Below, piece by piece: positions 4,823 to 19,277 of a stretch of 54,204 bases of DNA; the first letter of the stretch is position 1, and each line of letters opens with the position of its first letter. Made by a program: the position numbers and the translations under genes. A model generated the notes under the pieces. That model searched no databases and was not told where the DNA came from. It saw nothing but the letters and a program-made list of their open reading frames with translations. This DNA is from Hyphomonadaceae bacterium (GTDB lineage: Bacteria; Pseudomonadota; Alphaproteobacteria; Caulobacterales; Aquidulcibacteraceae), in NCBI GenBank assembly GCA_016791365.1, contig JAEUMT010000003.1, positions 1-54,204 of the forward strand, given 5' to 3'.

Positions 4823-4978
4823 CAAGGCCTCGGCCAGGAAAGAGAGGCCGACATGTTTGCATTGCGAGCCCGAACAACGGCAACCGCCACGGAGAGACGA
4901 CTTGCTTGCGGTTTCATTGGCGCCGGCACCAATGCCCACCTGCGGCGAGGTGGGAAGCATGAAGAAGGACCTGAAACA

Positions 4979-5827
4979 ATGAACGATTGTTGCGCATCCT
5001 CCCCTGCGCCGGACAAGGCGACGGTTTCCACAGACGCGACGCTGCCGAGTTACATTATGCGGCCGGGAGTGACCTTTCCGGATTGGTCGGTCGTCACATC
5101 GCCAACCGTTCGAGACGCTCTGCAGACCATGGTCAGCTCCGGCCATGTGCTCGAACGTTGGAGCGGCTACGAAGCGGCCGCAGACCGCGTGCGTGTTGCG
5201 CTGCTTCAGCTTTACGTTGAGCTTGGACAAGCCCCGACCACAGACGTGCTCGCCCAGCGCGCGGGGCTGAGCGAGGAATCCGTCCGTCCACTACTCAAAG
5301 AACTGCGCCGTCGCGATCTCGCCATTCTCGATGGCGACACCATCACCGGAGCCTATCCCTTCACCGAGCGCGACACCGGCCATCGGGTTACCCTGGACGC
5401 GCGTACGCTCAAGGCCATGTGCGCGGTCGACGCGCTCGGCGTTGGCGACATGACCGGGCGCGACATCGCGGTTGAATCACGCTGCCGCCACTGCGGCACG
5501 CCGGTCAAGATCACCACGCAGGACCGCGGGCGAGCTCTGGCTGACATCGCTCCCGACACGGCCGTCGCGTGGCTCAGCGTCCGTTACGAAGATGGCTGCG
5601 CTGCAAGCTCGCTTTGTACTGCAACATCGTTCTTCTGTTCGGATGATCACCTCGCCGCCTGGCGTCACGCGCAGCCTGCTGACAAGACGGGATACCGCCT
5701 GACGATCGAAGAAGCCTTGGAAGCAGGTCGGGCGATCTTCGCGCCGAGCCTTGCCGGAGTGGGCGCAATCGCCGGCCACGACGACGACGGGACCAAGACA
5801 CGCGACAGGGCCGAATCGGGCAATTGA
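4979..5827 (+). CDS. merB: alkylmercury lyase MerB (long form)
   Basis: Cleaves the carbon-mercury bond of organomercurials by protonolysis, delivering Hg(II) to MerA. The 282-residue protein has the catalytic set seen in the family: C148 and D151 in MCAVDALG and C220 in FFCSDDHL, corresponding to C96, D99 and C159 of the classical enzyme. It is longer than the usual ~212 residues because of an N-terminal extension of about 50 residues beginning MNDCCASSPA, which contains a CC pair that might bind metal (inference). A winged-helix-like segment at about 70-120 is typical of MerB. ATG 4979 is the likely start; the frame is open further upstream. Confidence 0.93.
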   Translation: MNDCCASSPAPDKATVSTDATLPSYIMRPGVTFPDWSVVTSPTVRDALQTMVSSGHVLERWSGYEAAADRVRVALLQLYVELGQAPTTDVLAQRAGLSEESVRPLLKELRRRDLAILDGDTITGAYPFTERDTGHRVTLDARTLKAMCAVDALGVGDMTGRDIAVESRCRHCGTPVKITTQDRGRALADIAPDTAVAWLSVRYEDGCAASSLCTATSFFCSDDHLAAWRHAQPADKTGYRLTIEEALEAGRAIFAPSLAGVGAIAGHDDDGTKTRDRAESGN

Positions 5828-6349: not shown

Positions 6350-6712
6350 ATGGGCCACATGGCATCGGATTTAGTCCCGCCGTGCGTCGAGGCGTTGGAC
6401 AAAGGGCTGCGCAGCAGCGGTTTTCGGCCGCTCGCCCGAGTGCTGGACACTGCCCGCGCCACCGATGTGGCCGTCGCGCTCGCCACCGGCCGCGTAGCCG
6501 TCGTCCGCTGCGTGGAGCACGCCGCCCCTGAAGATCACACCGCCCTCGCAACAATGCTGACTGAGGGCGACTTCGTCTGGGCTGGGCTGGTCTATGGCGA
6601 GCGGGAGGGATCAGAGACCGTTGGTCTGGTCGAGACCTTCCATGTCAGCGAACTCGACCGGCTGGTTTCTCGGCTTCTGGAACTCCGGGAGGCGTTCGGT
6701 GAAGCCGGCTGA
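6350..6712 (+). CDS. uncharacterised protein overlapping the ECF sigma gene
   Basis: A 120-residue protein of unknown family. Visible features are an N-terminal helix (VPPCVEALDKGLRSSGFRPLARVLDTA), a strand-rich centre (DVAVALATGRVAVVRCVEHAAPEDHTALATMLTEGDFVWAGLVYG) and a C-terminal amphipathic helix. The AVALATGRVAVVRCVEH strand pair loosely recalls restriction-endonuclease-like folds, but I do not see a full PD-(D/E)xK motif. Its 3' end overlaps the sigma gene by 14 nt, which suggests coupled expression. It is divergent from the XRE regulator with a shared operator, so XRE may control entry into the lasso uptake operon. Confidence 0.65.
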   Translation: MGHMASDLVPPCVEALDKGLRSSGFRPLARVLDTARATDVAVALATGRVAVVRCVEHAAPEDHTALATMLTEGDFVWAGLVYGEREGSETVGLVETFHVSELDRLVSRLLELREAFGEAG

Positions 6713-7256
6713 TCTCGCCCGCCTCTTCGCCACCGAGGGCCCTCGCCTGCTGCGGCGGCTGCGGCGCTTTCGCGGGCGCATCGCCGCCGAGGACGTGGTC
6801 CAGGCCGCTTTTGCGAAAATGCTAGAAGTGGACGAGGCCGAGATCGAAGAGCCGCGCGCTTATCTGGCGCGCATCACCCGCAATTTGGCGATCGACGAAT
6901 TGCGCAAGCATGAGCGCGGCGGCCTCTCCTTCGTCGACGAAGGCGAACTGGATCGGCTCGGGGTCGGTGGCAGTTTGACCCCTGAGCAGATGCTGATCGA
7001 GGGCGAGCGCTTCGCGCACATGACCGGCGCGTTTTTGGCGCTGCCGAAGAAGGAGCGCATGGCGGTCGTCCTGTTCAAATTGAAGGGGCTCTCGCACGAA
7101 GAAATCGGCAGGCGGCTTGGCATTCCCCGCCACAGCGTGCCGCGCTATCTCTCCCGCGCGCTTGCCAAATGCGCAGAGGCGATGCAGGCCTTCGAACGAG
7201 CCGGGCTCGATGAGAGTGCTGATGACCAGCCCAAGGGAGAAGCGGATCGGACGTGA
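6699..7256 (+). CDS. ECF sigma factor (FecI-type)
   Basis: An extracytoplasmic-function sigma factor of 185 residues. Sigma-2 is seen as RLLRRLRRFRGRIAAEDVVQAAFAKMLE...AYLARITRNLAIDELRK, and sigma-4 as FLALPKKERMAVVLFKLKGLSHEEIGRRLGIPRHSVPRYLSRALAKC. The start is GTG 6699, with GGGAGG a few bases upstream. It overlaps the downstream FecR gene. In FecI/FecR systems the sigma factor is released when a ligand-loaded outer-membrane receptor signals through FecR. The next genes are FecR, a receptor with a signalling domain, and a lasso isopeptidase, an order known from astexin-type lasso clusters. Confidence 0.9.
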   Translation: MKPADLARLFATEGPRLLRRLRRFRGRIAAEDVVQAAFAKMLEVDEAEIEEPRAYLARITRNLAIDELRKHERGGLSFVDEGELDRLGVGGSLTPEQMLIEGERFAHMTGAFLALPKKERMAVVLFKLKGLSHEEIGRRLGIPRHSVPRYLSRALAKCAEAMQAFERAGLDESADDQPKGEADRT

Positions 7257-8181
7257 GGCCGCCGAATGGGTGGTGAAGTTCGATGGCGTCGCGTTCGACG
7301 CCCGCGATGTCCGCGCCTTTCGCCGCTGGCTTGCCAAGTCCGAAGAACACCGCGCCGCGTTCCAGCTCGCAAGCCGCACCTGGCATAAGCTCGACCTGTT
7401 GGCGCGGCTCGAGGCGTTCGATCTGCCCGCCAATGACGATGCGCCCATGATCAGCCGCCGCGCCCTCGCCGCGGGCGCTGGCGTACTGGCAGTCGGGATC
7501 GGCAGTTATGTCGCGCTTTCCGGCAGCGACGCCGAGGCGTTCGAGACCGGTATTGGCGAACGGCGCGAAATCGCATTGGCCGACGGCACGCGCGTGTTGC
7601 TCAACGCAAGCTCGCGCATCGAAGCGCGCATTCGCGAGAACCGCCGCGAAGCCCGCGTGACGGCCGGCGAAGCCCTGTTTGCGATTGCTGAGAGCGGCGC
7701 CGGCGTCTTTTCCATCACCACCCCGTCCGGCGAGATTGAAGCGGCGAGTGGCCAAATCCTGGTGAAGCTCTTGCCCGAAGGCGCGCGCGTAGCGCTGCTG
7801 TCGGATGGCGCCCGCGCGTCGCGGCGCACCTGGCTTGGCGGATCGCCGCCAGTTGCAGCCGGCGCCAGCAGCGAGATCGTGTTTGGAGAAACGGTCGAAG
7901 TGGGCGCCGTTTCCGCCGATCAGCTGGAACGGCGTCTTTCCTGGCGCGATGGCATGCTCGCCTTTGACGACACGCCGCTCTCCGAGGCCGTCGCCGATGT
8001 GACACGTCAGAGCGGCGTGCGCTTTACCTTCGCCGATCCGGCGCTGGCCGATCTTCGGGTGGGCGGACTTGTACGCGCCGATGATCTCGACGCCTTCCTA
8101 ACGCTCCTCAACAACAACCTCGCCGTTCGTTCAGAACGGCGTGACGGTGAGATCGTGCTGAGTTCGACCGCGACCCTTTAG
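7222..8181 (+). CDS. FecR-family anti-sigma factor
   Basis: Inner-membrane anti-sigma/co-activator of 319 residues. The N-terminal cytoplasmic domain (about 8-65, GREAAEWVVKFDGVAFDARDVRAFRRWLAKSEEHRAAF) binds the sigma factor. A single membrane segment follows at about 81-99, then the periplasmic FecR domain (FETGIGERREIALADGTRVLLNASSRIE...) and a C-terminal STN-like DUF4974 region (LSWRDGMLAFDDTPLSEAVADVTRQSGVRFTF) that contacts the receptor. Start 7222 lies inside the sigma gene; ATG 7210 is an alternative. It couples receptor occupancy to sigma release, here presumably sensing imported lasso peptide. Confidence 0.9.
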   Translation: MTSPREKRIGREAAEWVVKFDGVAFDARDVRAFRRWLAKSEEHRAAFQLASRTWHKLDLLARLEAFDLPANDDAPMISRRALAAGAGVLAVGIGSYVALSGSDAEAFETGIGERREIALADGTRVLLNASSRIEARIRENRREARVTAGEALFAIAESGAGVFSITTPSGEIEAASGQILVKLLPEGARVALLSDGARASRRTWLGGSPPVAAGASSEIVFGETVEVGAVSADQLERRLSWRDGMLAFDDTPLSEAVADVTRQSGVRFTFADPALADLRVGGLVRADDLDAFLTLLNNNLAVRSERRDGEIVLSSTATL

Positions 8182-8285: not shown

Positions 8286-11249
8286 ATGGGCAATTCTTCG
8301 GCGCGTACGCGCCGCGACGGCGCGCGCTCGCTGATCGTGATGGCGCTCGCATCTGTTTCAACGCTGGCTATGAATGGATCGGCCTTCGCGCAATCGCCTG
8401 ATCAAACTTCGCGCGCCGCGACCGCCGAGCGCGATTACGACATCCCCGCTCAACCGCTTTCGTCGGCTCTGCTCCGCTTCGCTGAGCAATCTGACCTGCA
8501 AATCCTGTTCTCGCAGGAAGATGTCGCAGGCATGACATCGCGCCCCGCGCGCGGTCGGCTCACGCCGGAAGCGGCGCTCGCGCAACTGCTGCCACAAGGC
8601 GCGCCGCGCATCGAGATCGCTGGCGATCGCGTCGTGCGGACGGACCTCCCCCGCCCCCAGTACGCCGGGAGTGACGAGGAAATCGTGGTGACGGGGACGC
8701 GCATTCGCGGCGCCGCGCCTGCCGGCGCGCACGTGCTGACGCTTGACGCCGACACCATCGAGGAGACGGGCCGTACGACCCTACAGGACGTGCTGCAGAC
8801 ACTGCCTCAGAATTTTCCAGGCAGTCAGAACGAAGCCAGCCAGCTCGGTTCGATCAACGCCGGGCGTAATGTAAGCTTCGGATCAACCGTGGATCTCCGC
8901 GGGTTGGGCGCCGACGCTACGCTCACCTTGCTGAATGGACGTCGCTTGGCGCCCGCCGGTTTCGGAAACTTCGTCGACATCTCCGCCATTCCGCTTGCAG
9001 CGGTCGAACGCGTCGATGTGCTGGCGGATGGCGCGTCCGCCACCTATGGCGCGGATGCCGTGGCGGGCGTCGTCAACATCATTCTGCGCGATGATTTTGA
9101 AGGCGCAGAGACTTCCGTTCGCTACGGCGCAGCGACGCGGGGCGAGCCCAACGAAATCGGCTTCTCCCAGGTGTTTGGCACGACTTGGAGGACCGGCTCG
9201 GCGATGATCGGTTATGAGTACCGCGATCGCAGCGAACTTGCCGCCGACGATCGCTGGTTCTCGGCGACCTCCGACTTGCGGCCGTGGGGCGGCACGAACT
9301 TCTCTTCGCCCTTCACCAATCCTGGCAACATAACGCGCATCGGCGCGACCAACGTCGTGCTGGCTATACCGGAAGGCCAGGATGGCACCTCGCTTAGTGC
9401 GGGCGATTTACTGCCAGGCGTCGTCAACCAACGACCTATGAACGCCGGCAACTCGCTCCTGCCGCAACAAACCAATCACGGCGTCTTCGCCACCTTGCGC
9501 CAGGATATCACGCCAAGTCTGGACGTCTTTGTCGACCTCATAGCCGGGCGCCGTGAATCTGAGTCCGATCGCTGGCAGAACAACGCCACCTTGGTCGTGC
9601 CCGAAACCAACGCCTACCGCGTGCTGAACAATCTCTTCCCAGGTCAAGGCGCCATCCGCATCAACTACAATCTGGGCGACGATCTGGGACCCTCTCACTT
9701 CTCGACGCGCGCCGACACGCTCTCGCTGGCTCTGGGCGCAGGTTACGAGCTTCCGAACGAATGGCGCGTTGAGGCGAGCGCGAGCCTCAGCCGTTACGAA
9801 ACGGCCGCCGATCAACTGAACATCTTCAGCCCGGGCGCCGCGCTCAACGCAGCCTTGGCGAGCAGCGACCTCAACACGGCCTTCAACCCCTTTGGTGACG
9901 GCGCCAATTCACCTGCGGCGGCTTTGGTCGGGCTGACCTTCGATGACCACCTCGAAGGCCTCTCAGAGATGGTCGTCTACGGCGCCAAGCTCGACGGCCC
10001 CTTCATGCGCCTTTGGGGCGGGCAAGCGCGGCTCGCCATCGGCGTCGAACGGCGCGAGGAAACGCTTGAGCTCCATCGCACGCGCGTGGCGTTCACTGGC
10101 ACAACTGTGACGACAAGCGTGCCTGAATCTGCGCGCACGACCGATGCGATCTTCGCGGAAGTCTTTCTTCCGCTCATCGGGCCAGAGCAGAATATCTTCG
10201 CCGTGCAGGGCTTCGACATCTCGATGTCGTTGCGCCGGGAGAGTGCGAGCGACTTTGGTGACGCCACCACGCCAAAGATCGGCGCGACCTGGACCATCAA
10301 CGATGAGCTGGCTCTGCGCGCCTCCTGGGGCGAATCGTTCAAAGCGCCGCAATTCCAATATCTGCGCGGCAATATCGTCGGCACCCTCACCTTCGCGACG
10401 CCGGCGCAAGATCCCTTCGCGACGAACGGCTCAACTGGCGTGCTCATCCTGGGCGGCGCCAACCCAGGACTGCGTCCAGAGAGCGCCGAGAACTGGACCG
10501 CTGGATTTGACTACAGACCTGCCTGGGCTTCCGGTCTTCGCTTCAACGCCACCTACTACGACATCGATTTCGTCGACCGTATCTCGCCACCGGGATCAAT
10601 TCTCTCAGCACTCGTCAATCCGGTCGGATACGAGACGGTTTTCATCCGCAACCCAACGCAAGCTCAGATCGACGCCTATCTCGCAGAAGCAAACACCGTC
10701 GTCGGCGCAGTGCCGGTCGATGGCGTCGAAGTGATCTGGGATGATCGCCAGTCCAACTTGGCTAGTCTCAGAACGCGCGGGGTCGATTTCGGCAGTAGCT
10801 ATTCGTTCGACACGTCCTGGGGCGACTTCAACGTGTTCGCGCAAGCGAGCCTCATGCTTCAATACACCGTCCAAACAGGGCCCGCGAGCACGCCGATCGA
10901 TGCGCTGGATACGCTCTTCTATCCCGTTGACCTGCGTGCACGCGCAGGCGTGTCGTGGAACAATGAGGGCTGGGGCGCAGGCCTGACGGCAATCTATGTC
11001 GACGACTATCGCGACAATATCAGTACACCCGCGCGCGATGTCGATGAATGGCTGACCTGGGATGCGCAAGTCAGTTACGACTGGAGTGGCGAAACCGAAC
11101 GTGCCGGCCCGCAGATCACGCTCAATGTGCAGAACCTCTTCGATGAAGATCCGCCCTTCACCAACAATCCTGTCGGCTACGCCTTTGACGCACAGGCGCA
11201 CTCCCCGCTCGGCCGCTTCGTGTCGCTGGAGCTGCGCCAGAGATGGTGA
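8286..11249 (+). CDS. TonB-dependent receptor with STN signalling domain (lasso-peptide importer)
   Basis: A 987-residue outer-membrane receptor. Order: signal peptide ending near SAFAQS (about 36); STN domain (about 48-120, YDIPAQPLSSALLRFAEQSDLQILF) that touches FecR; the plug starting EEIVVTGTRIRG with ADGASATYGADAVAGVVNIILR; then a 22-strand-type barrel ending FVSLELRQRW. The STN domain marks it as a transducer like FecA, matching the upstream sigma/FecR pair. Its stop overlaps the isopeptidase start, which ties ligand to lasso peptide. In astexin-type clusters the homologous receptor is thought to import the cluster's own peptide. The ligand here is inferred from context. Confidence 0.92.
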   Translation: MGNSSARTRRDGARSLIVMALASVSTLAMNGSAFAQSPDQTSRAATAERDYDIPAQPLSSALLRFAEQSDLQILFSQEDVAGMTSRPARGRLTPEAALAQLLPQGAPRIEIAGDRVVRTDLPRPQYAGSDEEIVVTGTRIRGAAPAGAHVLTLDADTIEETGRTTLQDVLQTLPQNFPGSQNEASQLGSINAGRNVSFGSTVDLRGLGADATLTLLNGRRLAPAGFGNFVDISAIPLAAVERVDVLADGASATYGADAVAGVVNIILRDDFEGAETSVRYGAATRGEPNEIGFSQVFGTTWRTGSAMIGYEYRDRSELAADDRWFSATSDLRPWGGTNFSSPFTNPGNITRIGATNVVLAIPEGQDGTSLSAGDLLPGVVNQRPMNAGNSLLPQQTNHGVFATLRQDITPSLDVFVDLIAGRRESESDRWQNNATLVVPETNAYRVLNNLFPGQGAIRINYNLGDDLGPSHFSTRADTLSLALGAGYELPNEWRVEASASLSRYETAADQLNIFSPGAALNAALASSDLNTAFNPFGDGANSPAAALVGLTFDDHLEGLSEMVVYGAKLDGPFMRLWGGQARLAIGVERREETLELHRTRVAFTGTTVTTSVPESARTTDAIFAEVFLPLIGPEQNIFAVQGFDISMSLRRESASDFGDATTPKIGATWTINDELALRASWGESFKAPQFQYLRGNIVGTLTFATPAQDPFATNGSTGVLILGGANPGLRPESAENWTAGFDYRPAWASGLRFNATYYDIDFVDRISPPGSILSALVNPVGYETVFIRNPTQAQIDAYLAEANTVVGAVPVDGVEVIWDDRQSNLASLRTRGVDFGSSYSFDTSWGDFNVFAQASLMLQYTVQTGPASTPIDALDTLFYPVDLRARAGVSWNNEGWGAGLTAIYVDDYRDNISTPARDVDEWLTWDAQVSYDWSGETERAGPQITLNVQNLFDEDPPFTNNPVGYAFDAQAHSPLGRFVSLELRQRW

Positions 11250-13243
11250 GACGCCAAGCCATCGGCGCCCTCTTTGCTGTGCTGTTCTCAACGATTGCGC
11301 CCGCCGCGGCGCAATCGTCGTCTGGCCCGACAATCGAAGATCTGGCGGCGCTCAGAAACCTTGGCGCCGGCCAAGGCGGATTGGCGCTCTCGCCGGACGG
11401 CGAGTGGCTCGCCGTGTTTCAGTCGCATATGGGTTTCGAACGCAACGAAGTCCGCTACGCCCTTGTCGTGACCGCGGCCCGACCGGGCGCTGCACCGCGC
11501 ATCGTCGCAGACGCCGGCGCAGGACTGCCACATCGAAATCAGGGCAGAGCGAGCGGAAGTCTCGTCGATCGCATTCCTCGCTGGTCGCCCGATAGCCGCG
11601 CCATTGCGTTCATCGCCGAACGCGAGGGGCGCGCGGAATTGTGGATCACCGACCTGACGGGGCGCGCACGCCTCGCTGCTCGACCAGACGGCGACGTCAC
11701 CGATTTCGCTTGGACCTCAGCACACAGCCTCGTCCTCACGACAACAACGTCCCGCGCGCTCGTCGAGGCGCAGCGCGCGTTGGACGCACGCGACGGCTTC
11801 CTCGTCACCGACAGTTTCGAACCCGGGTTTTCTTTGGCGCCTCTGCCCGCCGTCGAGGCGCAACGCCAGTGGCTTCATCTCGACACCCGCAACAGAGCGC
11901 TAACCCCGGCCGATGAATCGCAAGCGGCGCTCCTGCGCACGCCGCGGCGCGGCAACACATGGATTGGGGCCCGAGACGGCGCCTCTCAAGTCTCGCGCCC
12001 GCCTCGCGGTCTTTTCACAACGAGTGACGGCGCCTCGATCCTCTGCGCAGTCGACGCCTGCACCGGTCTCCTCAGAGACGCTGGTGCGTTGACGGACGGC
12101 GATGTGTGGTTCACGCGCGGCGAAGGTCCCTCGGCTGCTGATCTCTCACTCTATGTATGGACGCCAACGACCCAGAGCGTGCGCCGGGTCCGGCTGGCCG
12201 AAGAGCGGCTCTATGGGTGCAACACGCATGGCGCCTTCATTTATTGTCTCCAGGAATTTTCCACGCAGCCCCGCCGCATCGTGTCGATCGACACACGCGA
12301 CGGGGCGTTGGCCGTCATCTACGACCCCAATCCTCAGTGGCGGCGCTTCGCGCTTCCTCGGGTCGAGCGCCTGGCGTTCGAAGATGAGCGTGGCCTCCAA
12401 TCCTACGCGCATCTCGTTTATCCCAGCGACTATGTCGCCGGCCAAAGATACCCCACCATCATCGTGCAGTATCGCTCGCACGGGTTTTTGAATGCAGGCG
12501 TAGGGGGCGAGTATCCCATCTTTCCGGCCGCCGCCCAAGGCTACGCGGTGTTGAGCCTGGAGCGCCCCGAGCCACGCCTGCGAGAACAACAAATCTCGCG
12601 CGCGGAACTGGATCACGAAATGCTGATCGGCGATGAGGAAGAGCGGATGAAGCTCGCATCGCTCGACGGGCTTCTCGCTCTCGCGGTCGATTCCGGCGTC
12701 GTGGATCCCGATCGCGTTGCGATCACTGGCATGAGCGATGGCGCCGAGACTTTGTACTGGGCGCTGCGCGATCGCCACTTCGCCGCGGCCGTCGCCAGTG
12801 GACCGCCGATTGATCCCATCTTCTGGTGGTTGGCGGATGCCAACTTTCGTGCCGAGCTCCGCCAAACCGGCCTCGAAGCGCCTGATCTCGACCGGATGGC
12901 GCCGTGGTGGCGTCACAACGCAACGTTCTACTACGCCGATCGCATCGATACGCCATTGCTCATGAACCTCGCACAGAGTGAGGCGCCGCACGCGATGCCG
13001 CTCTACGTGCAACTCCACGATCGCGGCGCCGCAGTCGAAGCCTATATCTACCCGCAAGCCTTCCATGCCAAGACGCGCCCGAGCCACGTGCTGGCGGCGC
13101 AGAGACGCGCGATGGCCTGGATCGACTTTTGGCTGCGCCAGCCAATGAGTGAGGATGCAAACGACCCGAACCGCGCGGAACGCTGGGAGCTCATGCGCTC
13201 GCGATCTCTTGGGTCTCACCCTGCTCCGCGTGGCGCGCCTTGA
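11243..13243 (+). CDS. lasso-peptide isopeptidase (S9 prolyl-oligopeptidase-like)
   Basis: A 666-residue periplasmic serine hydrolase predicted to cut the macrolactam of a lasso peptide and linearise it. It has a signal peptide ending near APAAAQ, a WD-like beta-propeller N-terminal half (LSPDGEWLAV, PRWSPDSRAIAFI), and an alpha/beta-hydrolase domain with nucleophile S498 in GMSDGAE and histidine H608 in YPQAFHAKTRPSH. AtxE-type enzymes carry an acidic residue 28 before the histidine. Here that position is E580, in LAQSEAPHAM, where most relatives have an ADxE-like stretch. Its ATG overlaps the receptor stop, and its 3' end overlaps the convergent cyclase gene by 53 bp. A general S9 peptidase is the alternative, but context strongly favours isopeptidase. 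Confidence 0.9.
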   Translation: MVRRQAIGALFAVLFSTIAPAAAQSSSGPTIEDLAALRNLGAGQGGLALSPDGEWLAVFQSHMGFERNEVRYALVVTAARPGAAPRIVADAGAGLPHRNQGRASGSLVDRIPRWSPDSRAIAFIAEREGRAELWITDLTGRARLAARPDGDVTDFAWTSAHSLVLTTTTSRALVEAQRALDARDGFLVTDSFEPGFSLAPLPAVEAQRQWLHLDTRNRALTPADESQAALLRTPRRGNTWIGARDGASQVSRPPRGLFTTSDGASILCAVDACTGLLRDAGALTDGDVWFTRGEGPSAADLSLYVWTPTTQSVRRVRLAEERLYGCNTHGAFIYCLQEFSTQPRRIVSIDTRDGALAVIYDPNPQWRRFALPRVERLAFEDERGLQSYAHLVYPSDYVAGQRYPTIIVQYRSHGFLNAGVGGEYPIFPAAAQGYAVLSLERPEPRLREQQISRAELDHEMLIGDEEERMKLASLDGLLALAVDSGVVDPDRVAITGMSDGAETLYWALRDRHFAAAVASGPPIDPIFWWLADANFRAELRQTGLEAPDLDRMAPWWRHNATFYYADRIDTPLLMNLAQSEAPHAMPLYVQLHDRGAAVEAYIYPQAFHAKTRPSHVLAAQRRAMAWIDFWLRQPMSEDANDPNRAERWELMRSRSLGSHPAPRGAP

Positions 13244-15002
13244 TCTGGCGAAGCCAGAGTTCGGCGACCAGCTCATTTGAGAAATCTAAGACAGCCCGCC
13301 GCGGCTTCGCATCAAGGCGCGCGGCGTCGAACAAGCCGCGCTGGACCAATTCGCCGCCCTTCAAGGCATCGATGATGAAGTCACCGTTTGCCGCAGCGAC
13401 CGCTCCGAAGAAGCGCGTAGTGTCGCCCTTGCGTTGCCGCGCGACGGACGACGCCGGCAGATCATCTGCGAACGCCAGGCGCGCCAAGGCGCGATCTCGT
13501 CCGCCGTCGTAGCTTCGGTACGTGGGTATCGAGCAACAGAATTCGACAATGGGCTGCGAGGTGATCACGGGCGCCGGGATGAAGGAGCGACTGAGCAGCG
13601 ACGGGCCATGATAATATTGAAGGTCGCTGATGAGGAGCGCACGCATCGCTTCACCGGGCCCGCGCGCGAGCGCATCCTTGACCCAAGGATCCTCGAGCGC
13701 CGCGTCTGCCGCGCCCATCGCCGCATGGGGCCCGCTCTCCCGAGCCGCATCCATCAAGAGATTGCGTAAATAGGCGCGCGGCGACCGGAGGAGACCGTAT
13801 TGCGCGCCGATGGCCAATCCTGGCCATATCGATCGCCGCGACACGCGCGCTGCATCGAGCGCCAGCGATATGACGGTTGCAGGATTCAGCCGGTCACGAA
13901 CCGCGTCCGCGATCGTGCATGCCGCGCGCGAACGATAGAAGACTTGATCGCCGCCTTGGCCGGAGGTCAGCAAGCTCCCCGCATCTGCAAGGTCATGGAA
14001 GTGCGGATCGGCAAAGCTCAAGGTAGCGATCGAGGGCTTGGCCGAAAGCGGCGCCTCCATCAGTTTGCGATAGTCGATCTCACGAGGCTCATATTCCAGT
14101 TCGACCAGTTTCGCTCCGAACTTCGATGCGACAGCGCGCGCGGCCTGCCGCTCATCGCCCTCTGCGTACCCGCGCGGCCATTCGTTGACGCAAACGATGT
14201 CGCCGCCAGCCTGAGACAATGCCGCCAGTGCAATGCTGGAGTCGAGGCCACCCGAGAGGCGATGCAACGCCGGCCTGTTGAGCAACGCCCACGCACAGCA
14301 GGCGCCAAGAACGTGCGAGCGAAGATCTCTGGCCAGATCCTCCGTCTTAGCGGCAGCGAGTTCGACCCGGCGCGCCGGCGGGCGCCAAAAGAGGCTGGCG
14401 CAGTCGCCTTCGGCGCCGAGCGTGTAACATTCGCCGGCCAGTATCTCTCGCACGCCCCGAAGACCCGTTCGCTCATTGACAATCCGCGGCTGCGCGAGAA
14501 AGAGGCGCACGAACTCTTCGTCTACGCTCCGCAGCGGCGACCATTCGGCGACATCTTCAAAGTCGGTGAATAGGATACGCACGCCGTCGCCCTGCTCCTC
14601 GCGCGCAAAGCAGGGCCGCGCACCCATCGGGTCGCGGATGATCAAAATGCGCTCGCGCGCATTGTCGACGAGGATGGCGAGGTAGCCACCCCAACACGTT
14701 TTTGCGAGGCTGGCGCCTTGGGTTTCAGCCCATGCGCGGCATGTCTGCGGGTCAGGTTCTAAAACGCGCGCATCGTCGCTTCCTTCGCTTGTGAAAAGCG
14801 CGCCAACAACGAGCCCCATACTGTTCGGCAAGACCAGCGGCTCGACATCGCCGCTCGTCTCGGTCGCCAAAAGCAAGAAGCCGCGCGTGCTGACCACTTG
14901 GCGCCAATTGCCACGACCCAGCACGCGCGCGGCGTACGCTTCGGCTGCCTTGCGGCCTTCAAAGTGACCAGGCCGCCACCTAAAGCCTACGAGCCGGTGC
15001 AT
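13191..15002 (-). CDS. lasso cyclase, C protein (asparagine-synthetase-like)
   Basis: ATP-dependent macrolactam synthetase: it adenylates the side chain of ring residue 9 and joins it to Gly1 of the core. The 603-residue protein has an N-terminal glutaminase-like domain lacking the catalytic Cys2 (it begins MHRLVGF), as expected of lasso C proteins that need no glutamine. It also has the PP-loop ATP site SGGLDSS at 250-256. The start lies 3 nt after the B gene stop. The 3' end overlaps the convergent isopeptidase gene. Ordinary AsnB is excluded by the missing Cys2 and the lasso context. Confidence 0.95.
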   Translation of the reverse strand: MHRLVGFRWRPGHFEGRKAAEAYAARVLGRGNWRQVVSTRGFLLLATETSGDVEPLVLPNSMGLVVGALFTSEGSDDARVLEPDPQTCRAWAETQGASLAKTCWGGYLAILVDNARERILIIRDPMGARPCFAREEQGDGVRILFTDFEDVAEWSPLRSVDEEFVRLFLAQPRIVNERTGLRGVREILAGECYTLGAEGDCASLFWRPPARRVELAAAKTEDLARDLRSHVLGACCAWALLNRPALHRLSGGLDSSIALAALSQAGGDIVCVNEWPRGYAEGDERQAARAVASKFGAKLVELEYEPREIDYRKLMEAPLSAKPSIATLSFADPHFHDLADAGSLLTSGQGGDQVFYRSRAACTIADAVRDRLNPATVISLALDAARVSRRSIWPGLAIGAQYGLLRSPRAYLRNLLMDAARESGPHAAMGAADAALEDPWVKDALARGPGEAMRALLISDLQYYHGPSLLSRSFIPAPVITSQPIVEFCCSIPTYRSYDGGRDRALARLAFADDLPASSVARQRKGDTTRFFGAVAAANGDFIIDALKGGELVQRGLFDAARLDAKPRRAVLDFSNELVAELWLRQIKARHAEQGETQEIASA

Positions 15003-15005
15003 GCG

Positions 15006-15626
15006 CTACACACGAAGTATCTCGACGAAGGCAGCGCAGTATTCCGCCTCGTCATTCAGGATGCGCCCTTCGGCCTCAAGCCAGCAATGGGCGGCGAAAG
15101 GCGGATGGCGGACGCCGAACACGATCTCGGGGCGCTCGCCCGTGCGCACAAGGAACGCGGCGAGCGCCAGAGTGTCGAACAGGCACACGTTTCGCCGCGG
15201 ATACCACGGCCGCCATGCGCGAAACTGATTGAGCGCGCGATGAGACGCCATGCTTGCGCCGCCATCCCGGCGCCCCCGAAACCAGCGAAGCGCTAGATCG
15301 AGACGGCGCCTGCGCAGATAGAGCTCTGCCCAAAGACAAGCGGTGAGCACGGCGGCGGGACCACCATTGCGGCCAAGGACCTGTGCGGTCTCCGCTACCA
15401 ATAGACCTTGGCGCATGAGCTTCTGGCGAAGCGGGATCACGAGCGGATCGCTTGGCCCCTCCTCTGCCAGCACATTCAAAAACGCAGCCGCCGGCGAGGC
15501 GACGTAGCGATCGGTCCGAAGGTCGAGCAAGATCGCCGTATCGCCAAGAACCGCATGATGCACTCCCGCCGCCGGACGCACGCGTCCCGGCGGCGCGCCG
15601 TTGGGCGCGCCACCGGCGCCGGTCAC
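15006..15626 (-). CDS. lasso B protein, fused leader-binding (B1/PqqD-like) and cysteine protease (B2)
   Basis: The 206-residue protein removes the leader peptide and hands the core to the cyclase. Residues about 18-85 (VHHAVLGDTAILLDLRTDRYVASPAAAFLNVL) form a PqqD-like recognition domain. Residues about 95-206 form a transglutaminase-like protease with a visible triad: C148 (RRNVCLFDTL), H180 (PFAAHCWLE) and D192 (RILNDE). Proteobacterial lasso B proteins are usually this fused form. The GTG start at 15626 overlaps the A2 stop as GTGA, so B translation is coupled to the precursor. No ABC exporter (D protein) is in the window, as is usual for isopeptidase-type clusters. Confidence 0.94.
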   Translation of the reverse strand: MTGAGGAPNGAPPGRVRPAAGVHHAVLGDTAILLDLRTDRYVASPAAAFLNVLAEEGPSDPLVIPLRQKLMRQGLLVAETAQVLGRNGGPAAVLTACLWAELYLRRRRLDLALRWFRGRRDGGASMASHRALNQFRAWRPWYPRRNVCLFDTLALAAFLVRTGERPEIVFGVRHPPFAAHCWLEAEGRILNDEAEYCAAFVEILRV

Positions 15627-15754
15627 GGCGTATAGAAGTCGCGCGTGCTGATGCCTTCCTTGGCATCTTCCAGCGGCACGCCTTGGGTTTCTTCGGTGAC
15701 GGCGCCCAGATCGACGACATCATCGCGCTCACGCGCTTCATCTTGCTTGCGCAT
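15623..15754 (-). CDS. lasso peptide precursor A2 (43 residues)
   Basis: A gene below usual ORF cut-offs. The leader (residues 1-24) starts MRKQDEARER and ends DDVVDLGAVTEETQ. It matches the proteobacterial lasso leader pattern LGxxSxxTx followed by Gly, with Thr at -2. The predicted core (25-43) is GVPLEDAKEGISTRDFYTP. Gly1 and Glu9 can form a 9-residue ring, leaving a 10-residue tail with bulky R14, F16 and Y17 as possible plugs. Calculated monoisotopic mass of the macrolactam is 2076.02 (MH+ 2077.02). AAGGAA precedes the ATG, and its stop overlaps the B start. Confidence 0.93.
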   Translation of the reverse strand: MRKQDEARERDDVVDLGAVTEETQGVPLEDAKEGISTRDFYTP

Positions 15755-15804
15755 CTGATAGTTCCTTTTCTCAGGTTACGGATTGGACGCTGCGTGATGG
15801 AGAC

Positions 15805-15921
15805 CTAGTCGTCGGTCCAATGATCCTTCATCGTCAACGACTCGTAATGGTCCATCATGAACGAGCCTTGGGTGAGCTCGCTCACTGATCCGAGTTCAAC
15901 GATATCTTGGTCATCACGCAT
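15805..15921 (-). CDS. lasso peptide precursor A1 (38 residues)
   Basis: Leader residues 1-18 are MRDDQDIVELGSVSELTQ, which share the D-x-V-x-LG-x-V-x-E-x-TQ pattern with A2. The predicted core (19-38) is GSFMMDHYESLTMKDHWTDD: Gly1-Glu9 ring, 11-residue tail with K14, H16 and W17 as candidate steric locks. Calculated monoisotopic mass of the macrolactam is 2426.96 (MH+ 2427.97), with three methionines liable to oxidise. GGGAGAGAG precedes the ATG. It lies 50 nt before A2 on the same strand. Cores share almost nothing except Gly1 and Glu9, so the two peptides probably have different targets. Confidence 0.92.
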   Translation of the reverse strand: MRDDQDIVELGSVSELTQGSFMMDHYESLTMKDHWTDD

Positions 15922-15949: not shown

Positions 15950-16017
15950 AATAAGAGTATGCGCGGCCTCGCGACGATCACCGAGCTGATCAGCATGAAG
16001 ATCAGGTAGGCGTTCAC
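15940..16017 (-). CDS. possible 25-residue hydrophobic peptide ORF
   Basis: A frame starting GTG 16017 overlaps the GntR stop (GTGA) and encodes a 25-residue peptide beginning NAYLIFMLISSVIVARP after the start, hydrophobic enough for one membrane helix. It ends 18 nt before A1. It could be a coupled small membrane peptide or a remnant of a lost transporter N terminus. No family is recognised and no good independent ribosome-binding site is seen, so it is a weak call. Confidence 0.25.
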   Translation of the reverse strand: MNAYLIFMLISSVIVARPRILLLGE

Positions 16018-16634
16018 CGCGGCGCACCGTTCGGCGGGAGCGCCTTCAGGGCGATGCGCTCGCGTATGGCCTCGGCGCCTTGAATGCGGCGTCGTTGATA
16101 TGACTTCATCAGAGTGCTCACGCGCTTCGTCCTCTGGGCAATCGCGGTCACCAGCGCTTCGAACTCGCCCTGAACATCTCCAAGAATGTCGGCTTCGGCG
16201 ACGCGCGCTGCGCGCAGCCTTTCATCGGCATTGAGCGCAGATCGGCGTAGGTTTGGGTTGGCGCCGCCTTCAAGCATCCGCATCACGTTCTCTACCGCTT
16301 GCGCATAGGGTTGCGTGCGAGCCAGACGCTGCAATTCCGGGGCGGACGCGGTCGATGGAAGAACAAGCGTAAGGAGCGCGCCACGCCATTCGTAGAGTTG
16401 GGCGAGTTCTGCGGCTGGCCAGAGCGCAACTTCGTAGCCCGAGTGCTCGCCTGGGCGAACGAGGCGCTCCGCGTTCAGCAGGTTAAGCGCCAGCCTGACA
16501 GGCATCGAACTGACGCCCACTCTTCGCGCCAAGTCCTCGAGGTCAAGGCGCGAGCGCACCGGCAGCGCGCCGTCGAGGATCAGGCGCTTTATCTCATCAT
16601 AGGCGCGCTGCGCCGCACTCGCATCGGCCGCCAT
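16014..16634 (-). CDS. GntR-family transcriptional regulator
   Basis: A 206-residue regulator with an N-terminal winged helix: AYDEIKRLILDGALPVRSRLDLEDLARRVGVSSMPVRLALNLLNAERLVRPGEHSGYEVALW (about 11-75). A helical C-terminal ligand-binding domain of FCD-like size follows. Its ATG is one base from the phyH stop, and it is followed after 92 nt by the precursors, so it sits inside the putative luxR-luxI-phyH-gntR-A-B-C operon. It may sense a peptide fragment or metabolite and adjust precursor transcription (inference). Confidence 0.85.
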   Translation of the reverse strand: MAADASAAQRAYDEIKRLILDGALPVRSRLDLEDLARRVGVSSMPVRLALNLLNAERLVRPGEHSGYEVALWPAAELAQLYEWRGALLTLVLPSTASAPELQRLARTQPYAQAVENVMRMLEGGANPNLRRSALNADERLRAARVAEADILGDVQGEFEALVTAIAQRTKRVSTLMKSYQRRRIQGAEAIRERIALKALPPNGAPR

Positions 16635-16635
16635 G

Positions 16636-17508
16636 TCATTCGCTGGACGCCATCAGCGTCTTCAGCTCCGCGGCGATCGCCGGCGGCAACGCATCCCGGT
16701 GTGGTCCGCATGGAGACGCATCGCGCAGATACTCTATTGGGTCCTGGCCTTCCCAGCCGCCAATATTGGGCCGATGCCAGCGATAGCCGATGAGACGCTG
16801 CAGCTCTTCGGGAAACCATCGGGCTACATCGCGCGGGTACGCCAAGAACTGTTCTTCGTAAGTGCGCAGCCACCCCGCACAATAGCCGATGACGACGCCG
16901 GTGCGGTCAGCGTCTGAACGATTGGCGCCGCCGCTATGGGTCAGCCCGCCCAGATAGACGAGCGCCGATCCCGCTTTCATCACGCCTTGGATTGCGTGTT
17001 GTGGATCAGGACTACGACCCAAACGTTCGATGTGACTGCGGGGCCAAAGCCGCGTCGCGCCATTGGTCTCGGTGAAGTCGCTGACCGCCCACATCACATT
17101 GAGCGACCAGATTTGGCCGTTAGGATCGGCCGGCCACATCTCTTCGTCACGATGCGGCGCTTGCGCCTTCTGTCCAGGATGAATGCGGATTGCCTGGGTC
17201 ATGTTGAGCCGCATGCAATCGCAGGCCGGCGCAATGGCTGCGTCGGCGAGCGCCAAGATGCGTGGATGCAGCGCCAGCTGCTGGACCAGCGGCGCCTTAG
17301 ACAGAAGCCCATTCACACGTGTCGTCGACCAGCCGTGGAAGTCGCCCTCGCAGCGCGGTGTGCGTTGGAGCCAGGGTTCGAGCTCGGCGGCCAGCGCATT
17401 CGCTTGGCCTTCGTTCAGGAGCCCATCGAGCACGAGGAAGCCATCGCGCTGCAGCGCATAAAGATCGCCGGCGAGCGTGTCGTTCGCCGCAAAAGCCGTA
17501 ACGGACAT
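16636..17508 (-). CDS. phytanoyl-CoA-dioxygenase-family (PhyH) Fe(II)/2OG oxygenase
   Basis: A 290-residue non-heme iron oxygenase. The facial triad is visible as H119-R-D121 (APHRDEEMW) and H191 (GLTHSGGANRSD), with R202 suitable for 2-oxoglutarate. The N-terminal LQRDGFLVLDGLL is typical of PhyH proteins. GGAGGGG precedes the ATG, 16 nt after the luxI stop. Substrate is open: it could hydroxylate a lasso peptide (each core has several Asp residues; Asp hydroxylation by a 2OG enzyme is known in another lasso pathway), the acyl chain of the LuxI signal, or something unrelated. Placement between luxI and gntR-A1-A2 makes either of the first two plausible. Confidence 0.88.
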   Translation of the reverse strand: MSVTAFAANDTLAGDLYALQRDGFLVLDGLLNEGQANALAAELEPWLQRTPRCEGDFHGWSTTRVNGLLSKAPLVQQLALHPRILALADAAIAPACDCMRLNMTQAIRIHPGQKAQAPHRDEEMWPADPNGQIWSLNVMWAVSDFTETNGATRLWPRSHIERLGRSPDPQHAIQGVMKAGSALVYLGGLTHSGGANRSDADRTGVVIGYCAGWLRTYEEQFLAYPRDVARWFPEELQRLIGYRWHRPNIGGWEGQDPIEYLRDASPCGPHRDALPPAIAAELKTLMASSE

Positions 17509-17524: not shown

Positions 17525-18154
17525 TTAGGCCGCGCGCGCGAGGTCGGCGGGCACGAACCGGGTCAACGGCGCGGTGATCGCGAACGCTTCGCGCACGCGC
17601 TTTAGCCCCGCCCCATCGATGCTCGCGACAAAAGCCTGAATGCGGTTGCGCCCCTCACCGCGAGGCGCGCCCAGAGCGCGGACGTCCCAGCCGACTTTGA
17701 GCGCCATAGGCGCGAGCGCGGCGTCGGCGACGTACGTCACCTGTTCGATGCCGAAAAGGAGCGCGGTCTCCATAATGCCGGCGATCATGCGCCCGAGCAT
17801 CTGGCGGCGCGGGGCGCCGGCGGGCGTGTCGGGCGCTGGACAAAACCGCGTCGCTTCCCAAACACCGGGCCCTGCAGGCAGCCCCTCTTCACAGAGATCG
17901 GCGAATTGTTGGCTGAGCAGGTGCGGACGCACTGTGGGCAAGAGCCGCGCCGACACGCTGACGTCCGAAGTTAGCGTTCCCGCCTCGATCAGATAGATCG
18001 CGTCGTGACTGTCATAGCTGTCGATTTCGAGCCCGGCGCTTTCCTCCAGCCGCCATTTGAGTTTGTCGATGAACACCTGCTTTCGCTGGCGGTGCATCTC
18101 GGTCAACAGGTGGTGAAACCGCCGACGGTTTTCTTCCGATACGATGTAGATCAT
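17525..18154 (-). CDS. LuxI-family acyl-homoserine-lactone synthase
   Basis: Makes an acyl-homoserine-lactone signal from SAM and an acyl donor. The 209-residue protein has the family's invariant residues in expected places: R24, F28, W34, D45, D48, R70 (SARLLPT), E100 and R103 (GVWEATRFCP). Its acyl length cannot be read from sequence. It lies 88 nt downstream of luxR on the same strand. Its ribosome-binding site can fold into a hairpin, and a perfect 14-bp dyad lies 54 nt upstream, so both transcriptional autoinduction and translational control are possible. Confidence 0.93.
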   Translation of the reverse strand: MIYIVSEENRRRFHHLLTEMHRQRKQVFIDKLKWRLEESAGLEIDSYDSHDAIYLIEAGTLTSDVSVSARLLPTVRPHLLSQQFADLCEEGLPAGPGVWEATRFCPAPDTPAGAPRRQMLGRMIAGIMETALLFGIEQVTYVADAALAPMALKVGWDVRALGAPRGEGRNRIQAFVASIDGAGLKRVREAFAITAPLTRFVPADLARAA

Positions 18155-18190: not shown

Positions 18191-18207
18191 GTGCGTCGAC
18201 GGGTATT

Positions 18208-18221
18208 GGTCCCACGGGACC
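18208..18221. promoter_or_regulatory. candidate lux-box dyad
   Basis: GGTCCC-AC-GGGACC is a perfect palindrome with partial extension outward (about 18205-18224). It lies in the luxR-luxI gap, 54 nt upstream of the luxI ATG. Size, symmetry and place fit a LuxR binding site, although the sequence is more GC-rich than the classical lux box. Confidence 0.55.
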
Positions 18222-18242
18222 TATTGACTCTTTTCGAATCGA

Positions 18243-18980
18243 TCAGCCGGTCAAATCGTCGACCATGATCTGACCGTCGAACACCGCACGCACGACCGCC
18301 TGCACCCTGGAGGAAACGCCATAGCGCTTCTTGGCGCGCTCGATGGCGTTGTGGGCGGTTCGCCAATTTACGCCCAGCACTTCGCCAATCACCCAATCAC
18401 TCTTGCCGCAGCCCGCGAGCGTCAGGCACTCGCGCTCGCGCGGCGGCAGCACGACGGGATCGGCCAGCGCATCGGGATTGAGCCGGCGATGCATGGCGCC
18501 ATGCCCATAGATGACGATCATGAGAACGTGCGCCATCGCCAAGGGATCGACGCCGTCCGATCCGGCAATGAGCGAGCAGGAAGCCGGAATCACATCGGGC
18601 GAACGCAGCGGAATGGTAAGGCCCTTTGAGAGTCCGTAGAGGGCGCCCTCATCCAACACACGCTTTTGCTCGCGGCTCAAACGCATCTTCGCCAGGCAGT
18701 CCACCCAATTGAATGGCGAGGACATGATGCGCGCCGCCAGGAAGACTGGATCGATCCGCGCGAAATCCGCTTCCGAATAATGCTGCACCCAAGGGACTGG
18801 ATAGTTGAGCACGCTCACCCCGCCCGGCCGCGGCCGAAGCGGGTCTACATGCGAGGCGCAAGCGACGTATTCATAGCCGAGCGCTTGCAGCGTTGAGACA
18901 AATCGATCCTCGATGACCTGCGCGCTCGTTTGCTTCTCACAGAAGTCGAGGAAATCCAGCGCAATCTTGCTGGCAGGCAT
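18243..18980 (-). CDS. LuxR-family quorum-sensing regulator
   Basis: A 245-residue receptor-regulator. The N-terminal autoinducer domain has the signature residues W64, Y68, D77, P78 and W92 (VPWVQHYSEADFARIDPVF...FNW). The C-terminal HTH is LPPRERECLTLAGCGKSDWVIGEVLGVNWRTAHNAIERAKKRYGV. Start 18980 (MPASK) has GGAGG 7 nt upstream; a longer frame to 19064 lacks support. It is the first gene of the minus-strand run, so it may autoregulate and drive luxI and the lasso genes. Preserved ligand residues argue that it is a cognate receptor rather than a solo. Confidence 0.93.
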   Translation of the reverse strand: MPASKIALDFLDFCEKQTSAQVIEDRFVSTLQALGYEYVACASHVDPLRPRPGGVSVLNYPVPWVQHYSEADFARIDPVFLAARIMSSPFNWVDCLAKMRLSREQKRVLDEGALYGLSKGLTIPLRSPDVIPASCSLIAGSDGVDPLAMAHVLMIVIYGHGAMHRRLNPDALADPVVLPPRERECLTLAGCGKSDWVIGEVLGVNWRTAHNAIERAKKRYGVSSRVQAVVRAVFDGQIMVDDLTG

Positions 18981-19277
18981 GGCGAAACCTCCAGTTGTGT
19001 CTTGCCTACTAAGATCGGACTCCGGTCGGCATGCAAGAGGCGCGCTGTAGCCGAGCGTGTGCATCTCCCCAACTCGCGCGTTAGGCGCGTGCTCGCTCGC
19101 GCGCCGGAGAGGCCATGCCCGCGCCGGGGCCCTGCGTCGAGGGACGCTCCGCTCTCAAAGATGAGCCCTCGACCCAGGTCCCCTCTGGGGCGCGGGCCTT
19201 GGGGACGAGCCGTCGCGCAAGCGACCCCGCGCCAGCACTTCCGCGGCGCGGGTCTCGTTCCAAAGGTTCGAACTCCG
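18981..19277. promoter_or_regulatory. divergent luxR/parB intergenic region with hairpins
   Basis: Next to luxR lies an imperfect dyad GATCGGA-C-TCCGGTC (19013-19027), a candidate site for luxR control. The parB side is a GC-rich leader with at least two stems: GTCGAGGG paired with CCCTCGAC (19136-19173, with an inner GCTC/GAGC stem) and GTCCCC paired with GGGGAC (19178-19206). No gene is seen. The border between the lasso/quorum locus and the conjugative genes falls here. Confidence 0.45.

Follow-up and report, generated by a model that had tools for sequence, protein, structure and literature searches.

Lasso peptide clusters of the isopeptidase type are known from Proteobacteria through astexin (with its isopeptidase AtxE2), benenodin and subterisin, and combine A (precursor), B and C genes with an AtxE2-type isopeptidase, a TonB-dependent receptor, an extracytoplasmic-function (ECF) sigma factor, a FecR protein and a GntR gene before the precursors. 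The subterisin producer, Sphingomonas subterranea, is now named Novosphingobium subterraneum. The accessible text of a 2022 review (PMC9266682) gives GntR and sigma/anti-sigma proteins as their usual regulators and calls the role of their peptides 'enigmatic'. A second arrangement, luxR-luxI-phyH with or without a GntR gene, is syntenic in Sphingomonadaceae (PMC3704786, PMC4288048, PMC5012321); in the portions of these papers available to us, phyH lies beside luxI in four of five Novosphingobium pairs, with PP1Y among the strains (Gan and colleagues, PMC3704786), a GntR gene comes after phyH at one Novosphingobium subterraneum locus, and the reaction of phyH beside sphingomonad luxI is 'yet to be described' (PMC5012321). 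Here we analyze a locus that holds both, in a stretch of 54,204 nucleotides from a Hyphomonadaceae bacterium (positions 1 to 54,204 of contig JAEUMT010000003.1, assembly GCA_016791365.1), which we call the window. The locus has all the genes listed above for the isopeptidase-type clusters, and differs from them in that LuxR, LuxI and PhyH genes stand at the head of the lasso strand together with a lux-box-like site and in that its two precursors belong to a class of partners whose cores resemble each other within a cluster. Compared with the Sphingomonadaceae loci, the trio is the same but heads a lasso operon. We consider it likely that this is a density- or signal-gated operon on mobile DNA, encoding two paralogous lasso peptides with Gly1-Glu9 rings.

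The LuxR, LuxI, PhyH and GntR genes lie upstream of precursor gene A1 on the same strand; the preliminary description of this DNA covered the lasso genes and left these four unmentioned. The LuxI, which is the cassette's own, is the single one found in its genome (PF00765; 3.46 Mb, completeness 99.47), and its residues R24, F28 and W34 are those named as absolutely conserved in the accessible part of PMC3704786. The genes of an acyl-homoserine lactone (AHL) circuit, a synthase and an AHL-binding LuxR with a helix-turn-helix domain, are both present. Gaps measure 16 bases from LuxI to PhyH, 1 from PhyH to GntR, 92 from GntR to A1, 50 from A1 to A2 and 3 from B to C, with a 4-base overlap between the 3´ end of A2 and the GTG start of B. 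Because the genes share one strand and no gap exceeds 92 bases, a single luxI-to-C transcript is plausible. A promoter and terminator scan returned 0 promoter-like sites and 4 terminator-like sites, with 5.0 of the latter expected.

Relatives share this gene set: it is found across the genus and in two sister genera, in rearranged form on sphingomonad plasmids, and in another family, where LuxR-LuxI-PhyH is divergent from GntR-A-B-C (L102, L105, L106 and L112, with PhyH out of view in L106). Of 27 extended loci surrounding B homologues, drawn from 17 other genomes, 20 contain PhyH; in 17 of these 20, LuxI and LuxR come before PhyH, and the other 3 are cut by the contig start. For a census independent of PhyH, 299 genomes of the order were searched for the isopeptidase, with no more than four candidates scored in each; this gave 48 places, one split gene being counted once. 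At 30 of these 48 places the isopeptidase has a LuxI within 10 kb: 22 of 30 in the genus, 4 of 4 in two further genera from the same family and 4 of 14 elsewhere. One of the 22 genus places, G008:C3:1088713, holds an incomplete cluster, and the LuxI near it is part of the neighboring cassette. Six of the eight misses in the genus are on contigs that end before the relevant position; the rest are L116, where only the isopeptidase and receptor are left, and L032. Across the 30 genus genomes, 18 have LuxI and isopeptidase, 1 isopeptidase alone, 3 LuxI alone and 8 neither (Fisher P = 2.2e-4, uncorrected for kinship). A class-wide isopeptidase sample (2/385) was too sparse for use.

Scanning genome contigs with a PhyH alignment gave 47 loci, from Hyphomonadaceae metagenome-assembled genomes (MAGs), Terricaulis, Sphingosinicella, Steroidobacter, Povalibacter and others, many of them on contigs already represented among the loci above; 44 have LuxI, and B and C are both in view in 24, many of the remaining 23 ending soon after PhyH. 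The same alignment scan of viral contigs produced 80 pattern matches, 0 of them confirmed. Protein identities between the window and L037 (genome G008) are 95.6% for LuxR, 93.8% for LuxI and 91.4% for PhyH, and 65.5% for GntR, 36.4% for B and 36.5% for C; against L021 (G018) they are 51.0% for B, 55.4% for C and 40.4% for LuxR. The cassettes thus look mosaic, their signal and peptide arms seemingly swapped independently of each other while remaining together. At L076, L078 and L081 (Povalibacter and proteobacterial MAGs), LuxI-PhyH is accompanied by a lasso cluster ~1-6 kb downstream with different cores, and in L033, L034 and L025 receptor, isopeptidase or C genes are seemingly split into two frames.

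In the window, the lux-box-like palindrome sits in the LuxR-LuxI gap, ahead of LuxI. Its core, GGTCCCNNGGGACC, has one site at 0-1 mismatch in the 3.46-Mb genome, where a reversed control pattern has 5 matches per strand. The palindrome alone is unremarkable, and the case for a box rests on conservation. In 17 of 18 genus cassettes examined, the exception being L033, a palindrome of at least 6 complementary pairs comes after the same GTCAA and starts 70-82 bases before LuxI; many more distant loci were left unscored for boxes since the LuxI start was not found by regular expression. The arms vary by type (GGTCCC, GGCACG, GGCCTGATC, GATCTGATC and GGGCCGATC) with complementarity kept: 138 of 170 cells are complementary in 17 distinct 20-mer boxes, whereas 2000 column shuffles averaged 110 and never exceeded 127, a difference that relatedness inflates. 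Left out of this count were boxes of the 18-base GGGCCGATCGGCCC type, together with those that are weak or absent (L028/L048, L033/L089, L072, L082 and L083). The GGCACGNNCGTGCC pattern by itself was discarded as a box, being too common (25 of 30 genomes). Genomes G018 and G019 have three cassettes each, with three box types, LuxI proteins 55-64% identical and LuxR proteins 38-47% identical; three box types per genome would suit parallel private channels.

Plasmid records extend the linkage. PhyH matches 68 of them (40 listed) and C matches 21, and at least 7 of the 21 also match PhyH at a nearby position among the PhyH matches listed (40 of 68). Six of the seven were viewed (Novosphingobium PP1Y Lpl, Sphingobium indicum UT26S pCHQ1, Sphingomonas paeninsulae, Sphingopyxis indica pMC4, Novosphingobium ES2-1 p2 and Blastomonas RAC04), the seventh, Novosphingobium THN1, being left out. 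On all six, an AHL synthase, a phytanoyl-CoA dioxygenase, a lasso B2 protein and an asparagine-synthase-like protein are annotated within ~15 kb, and PP1Y Lpl and ES2-1 p2, both from cultured strains, each combine LuxR, AHL synthase, PhyH and GntR genes with an isopeptidase-containing lasso cluster; on these two, luxI does not stand in line with lasso A, B and C. In the plasmids viewed, 4 of 10 gaps show a clear box, and the ES2-1 gap has a perfect palindrome. The UT26S plasmid luxI has been termed a solo, according to the accessible part of PMC11024222. A tblastn search of A2 against plasmids gave no match; A1 was outside that search.

Judged by its genes, the window locus is a complete, standard isopeptidase-type lasso cluster. 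The Cys-His-Asp residues of B (C148, H180 and D192) are conserved in 23, 23 and 22 of 23 aligned homologues, C was counted as an asparagine-synthetase-like cyclase on PF00733, and the Ser-Glu-His residues of the isopeptidase are conserved in 21 of 21 aligned homologues, its nearest solved structure by sequence being AtxE2 itself (5txc, E 5e-80). The ECF sigma, FecR, TonB receptor and isopeptidase genes are on the plus strand, facing the minus-strand lasso genes, and the receptor is accompanied by both a sigma/anti-sigma pair and a GntR regulator. The preliminary description had reported two small precursor genes with a common leader pattern, D-x-V-x-LG-x-V-x-E-x-TQ, and with Gly1 and Glu9 in both cores, and had predicted Gly1-Glu9 rings closed after processing by the adjacent B and C proteins. 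Both open reading frames (ORFs) are there on the minus strand, the pattern is found in the A1 leader (MRDDQDIVELGSVSELTQ) and in the A2 leader (which ends VVDLGAVTEETQ), and Thr at -2, a small residue at 1 and Asp/Glu at 7-9 agree with the predicted rings, as do the catalytic residues of B and the SGGLDSS motif of C, which are present and conserved. Our recomputed lasso masses of 2426.961 for A1 and 2076.016 for A2 (MH+ 2427.968 and 2077.024) match the earlier values, and we regard the proposed chemistry as sound. A2 matches the Pfam Subterisin family (PF24178, 31.6 bits, cut-off 27) and A1 the NCBIfam lasso_leader_L3 model (NF033521, 20.1 bits, cut-off 19); A1 has no match among Pfam families, and both are under the benenodin cut-off (NF033522, 33 bits; A2 30.0, A1 24.9). 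Same-genus clusters have one or two such precursors at the equivalent place ahead of B. On these family scores and this recurrence, we rejected the view that A1 and A2 are chance ORFs.

Table 1. Features of the lasso and signal cassette in the window, in order of position.
Feature	Position	Strand	Evidence
ECF sigma factor (FecI-type by position)	6594..7256	+	PF04542 45.2 bits, PF08281 47.8 bits
FecR-type anti-sigma regulator	7117..8181	+	PF04773 49.6 bits
TonB-dependent receptor	8286..11249	+	PF00593 113.8 bits; weak N-terminal STN match, 22.5 bits, below cut-off 28.4
Lasso isopeptidase (AtxE2 family)	11243..13243	+	S498/E580/H608; NF033523 507 bits (cut-off 400)
Lasso C protein (asparagine-synthetase-like macrolactam cyclase)	13191..15002	-	PF00733 56.7 bits; SGGLDSS motif
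Lasso B protein (leader peptidase)	15006..15626	-	C148/H180/D192; NF033537 lasso B2 66.1 bits (cut-off 33)
Lasso precursor A2	15623..15754	-	43 aa; core GVPLEDAKEGISTRDFYTP; predicted ring G1-E9
Lasso precursor A1	15805..15921	-	38 aa; core GSFMMDHYESLTMKDHWTDD; predicted ring G1-E9
Second recurring ~30-base element, GntR-A1 gap	15981..16012	-	by eye; possible GntR operator
GntR-type regulator	16014..16634	-	PF00392 42.9 bits; position recurs in relatives
PhyH-type Fe(II)/2-oxoglutarate dioxygenase	16636..17508	-	PF05721 94.9 bits; H119-x-D121...H191 intact
LuxI-type AHL synthase	17525..18154	-	PF00765 80.2 bits; R24/F28/W34 present
Lux-box-like palindrome ATTGGTCCCACGGGACCTAT	18205..18224		8/10 pairs
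LuxR-type regulator	18243..19064	-	PF03472 84.7 bits, PF00196 26.4 bits

In the scheme that we favor, LuxI would make an AHL, and LuxR with its signal would bind the site at 18205-18224. Transcription would then run luxI-phyH-gntR-A1-A2-B-C, so that signal and peptide synthesis would rise together. B would cut the leaders after Thr-Gln and C would join Gly1 to Glu9 on each core, yielding two threaded peptides that would exit the cell, be imported through the FecI/FecR-controlled TonB receptor and be opened by the isopeptidase in the periplasm. GntR would probably act as a second gate, via the recurring element before A1, which by eye changes with the GntR type across relatives.

An integrated element, perhaps one whose transfer genes have been lost, probably carries the cassette as cargo. 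Elsewhere, the window encodes ParB, ArdC, Toprim and S26 peptidase proteins and a weak relaxase match (24.8 vs 24.6 bits), and a tyrosine integrase at 28060-29295 is followed by chromosomal-looking genes such as lepA. TraR/TraI-type circuits control conjugation of Agrobacterium Ti plasmids. The present system shares with these an AHL circuit on mobile DNA and, in three relatives, a box before traG, but differs in that the TraG homologues of the window genome are without a box, leaving the lasso operon as the visible target. Five of the 30 genus genomes contain an exact GGTCCCNNGGGACC. In G018, G019 and G008, which have cassettes with this box, the only other site is directly before traG (PF02534, 255-263 bits), on the cassette's contig and 64-104 kb away; a T2SSE-type ATPase gene comes after traG in G018 and G019, and in G008 the longest traG frame overlaps the box, the homologue-aligned start being ~90-100 bases after it. 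G006 was not accepted as a further match: its one site lies upstream of a traG fragment that shares 93% identity with the G019 one, and the one LuxI cassette found there has another box. Among 14 TraG homologues from five genomes, 5 have a box-like palindrome ~95 bases upstream (four GGTCCC and one the common GGCACG pattern) and 9 do not. By position, coupling of the box to conjugation is seen in three relatives and not in the window genome, whose three TraG homologues have no box upstream and whose 3.46 Mb hold a single box. A tentative extension is that the lasso peptides belong to the transfer program of the element and are regulated with it, each element using a private signal of its own to set off both traG-dependent transfer and the twin peptides, with several circuits of different boxes per genome; the peptides might act between carriers and non-carriers, for example by marking, excluding or inhibiting via the cognate TonB receptor. 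We hold this extension to be possible, with the odds against it.

Several observations weigh against a signal-gated lasso operon. Many 20-mers in the 8-21 kb part of the window also have 8/10 pairs, GGTCCCNNGGGACC with up to 2 mismatches has 2 window matches vs 2.32 expected, no consensus sigma-70 promoter is seen at LuxI, and a clear palindrome precedes LuxI in only 2 of the 6 lasso-bearing plasmids viewed (L136 and L138). The two modules also occur apart. Lasso clusters with no LuxI in view comprise L032, L103, L108, L110, L111, L113 and L115, the first of these being a same-genus cluster with two precursors and no PhyH, GntR or LuxI in the ~9 kb visible upstream; 7 of the 47 PhyH loci (L050, L068, L075, L082, L083, L087 and L092) show ~10 kb of downstream sequence from which the B-C pair is absent; 14 of the 21 C-matching plasmid records are absent among the PhyH matches listed (40 of 68); and the UT26S pCHQ1 stretch is without an annotated LuxR or isopeptidase, in a gene table that is incomplete. 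C itself scores under the curated lasso-cyclase cut-offs (NF033561, 69.3 vs 300 bits; NF033535, 19.5 vs 525 bits). The GntR-A1 gap, with its recurring element, may moreover hold its own promoter, and that element, together with the presence of the cassette's box before traG in three relatives, would fit an ordinary isopeptidase-type cluster that happens to lie beside a mobile element's conjugation-controlling quorum-sensing module, its lasso genes under their own GntR-controlled promoter. We think such an adjacency unlikely: the lasso linkage survives large divergence (LuxI 55-64% identical between the cassettes of one genome) and several layouts, the isopeptidase is also present in 18 of the 21 LuxI-bearing genus genomes, and the window genome's TraG homologues are without the box, yet its luxI-to-C run is intact.

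The part played by PhyH and the relation between the two peptides also admit other accounts. PhyH might hydroxylate one or both lasso cores, as CanE does the canucin precursor; the canucin cluster is likewise a lasso cluster with an Fe(II)/2-oxoglutarate (Fe/2OG) enzyme, known to hydroxylate a lasso precursor in the accessible text of PMC9266682, and the metal-binding triad of the window's PhyH is intact. The window's enzyme, by contrast, is more closely associated with LuxI than with the peptide genes. LuxI-PhyH pairs lacking lasso genes, a further point against the gated operon, are found both at genus loci with at least 8 kb in view downstream (L124, L126 and L133) and on Variovorax, Sphingobium and Novosphingobium P6W plasmids outside the 21 with a C homologue, and in CAP-1 and SYK-6 PhyH lies shortly ahead of virB-type transfer genes; set beside this are a minority of PhyH loci without LuxI (L090, L092 and a Methylocystis plasmid with a PhyH homologue). 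Since PhyH accompanies LuxI also where lasso genes are lacking, a place in the signal module is more likely for it than a role in peptide tailoring. We rejected it as a likely tailoring enzyme, and probably it modifies the signal or its acyl precursor rather than the peptide. Its structure model (mean pLDDT, the predicted local distance difference test, only 72) has 569 PDB matches at E ≤0.001, and the matches listed (50) are Fe/2OG oxygenases, mostly of small molecules, a result that does not discriminate between the two roles; its profile matches, likewise Fe/2OG enzymes acting on small molecules, do not do so either. Hydroxylation of the cores seems improbable to us, and the +15.99 mass variants proposed in the preliminary description gain little from the neighboring PhyH, which trails LuxI even without lasso genes. 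About as improbable is the view, also put forward there, that the cores are unrelated and serve two separate activities. In 36 distinct precursor sets found by regular expression, every core has Asp/Glu at 7-9, barring one probable false call, and in the 16 two-precursor sets with LuxI nearby the normalized similarity of partners is 0.416, as opposed to 0.126 (standard deviation 0.033) for shuffled partners, with 0 of 5000 shuffles reaching 0.416. Several of the 16 sets are near copies of one another and hence not independent, so that their similarity is counted more than once; 9 B loci yielded no precursor by regular expression, one of the 16 pairs includes a probably false precursor (L058), and L021 was entered with one precursor, though two are visible there. 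The window pair, at 0.197, is below the mean and is a diverged case, the closest core to A1 being one of L021 (0.355) and to A2 one of L034 (0.354); both window cores nonetheless have G1, E9 and a [KR]-D-x-[WY] tail in common. Partners in one cluster are thus far more alike than shuffled ones, which leaves the argument for two unrelated activities weak and favors A1 and A2 products that would be two paralogous G1-E9 lasso peptides.

We found no description of a LuxI-linked lasso cluster in a literature search judged mostly from titles and the openings of abstracts, with subscription journals thinly covered. In the accessible texts, 'lasso peptide' has 0 occurrences in PMC3704786 and 'lasso' 0 in PMC4288048 and PMC5012321; conversely, a 2026 review (PMC13352647) has 0 occurrences of quorum, LuxI, GntR and phytanoyl, and a paper on a Sphingomonas lasso cluster (PMC11006600) has 0 of luxI and quorum. 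The larger point is that a LuxI/LuxR circuit wired to a lasso operon recurs on mobile DNA. This linkage joins the question of what these lasso peptides do to that of the phyH reaction, and both are testable in the cultured strains PP1Y and ES2-1; if the signal does control the peptide, this would suggest a way to switch on silent lasso clusters of this type.

A few further observations concern single loci and the flanks of the window. L133 (8881-11846, on the contig of L050) has LuxR-LuxI-PhyH-GntR and no lasso genes in the 8-9 kb downstream, as an orphan regulatory arm. Near the left end of the window are genes for a pyridine-nucleotide oxidoreductase and a MerB-type alkylmercury lyase (1350-2777 and 4853-5827), and positions 37239-42443 encode a 1734-aa protein with RTX calcium-binding repeats.
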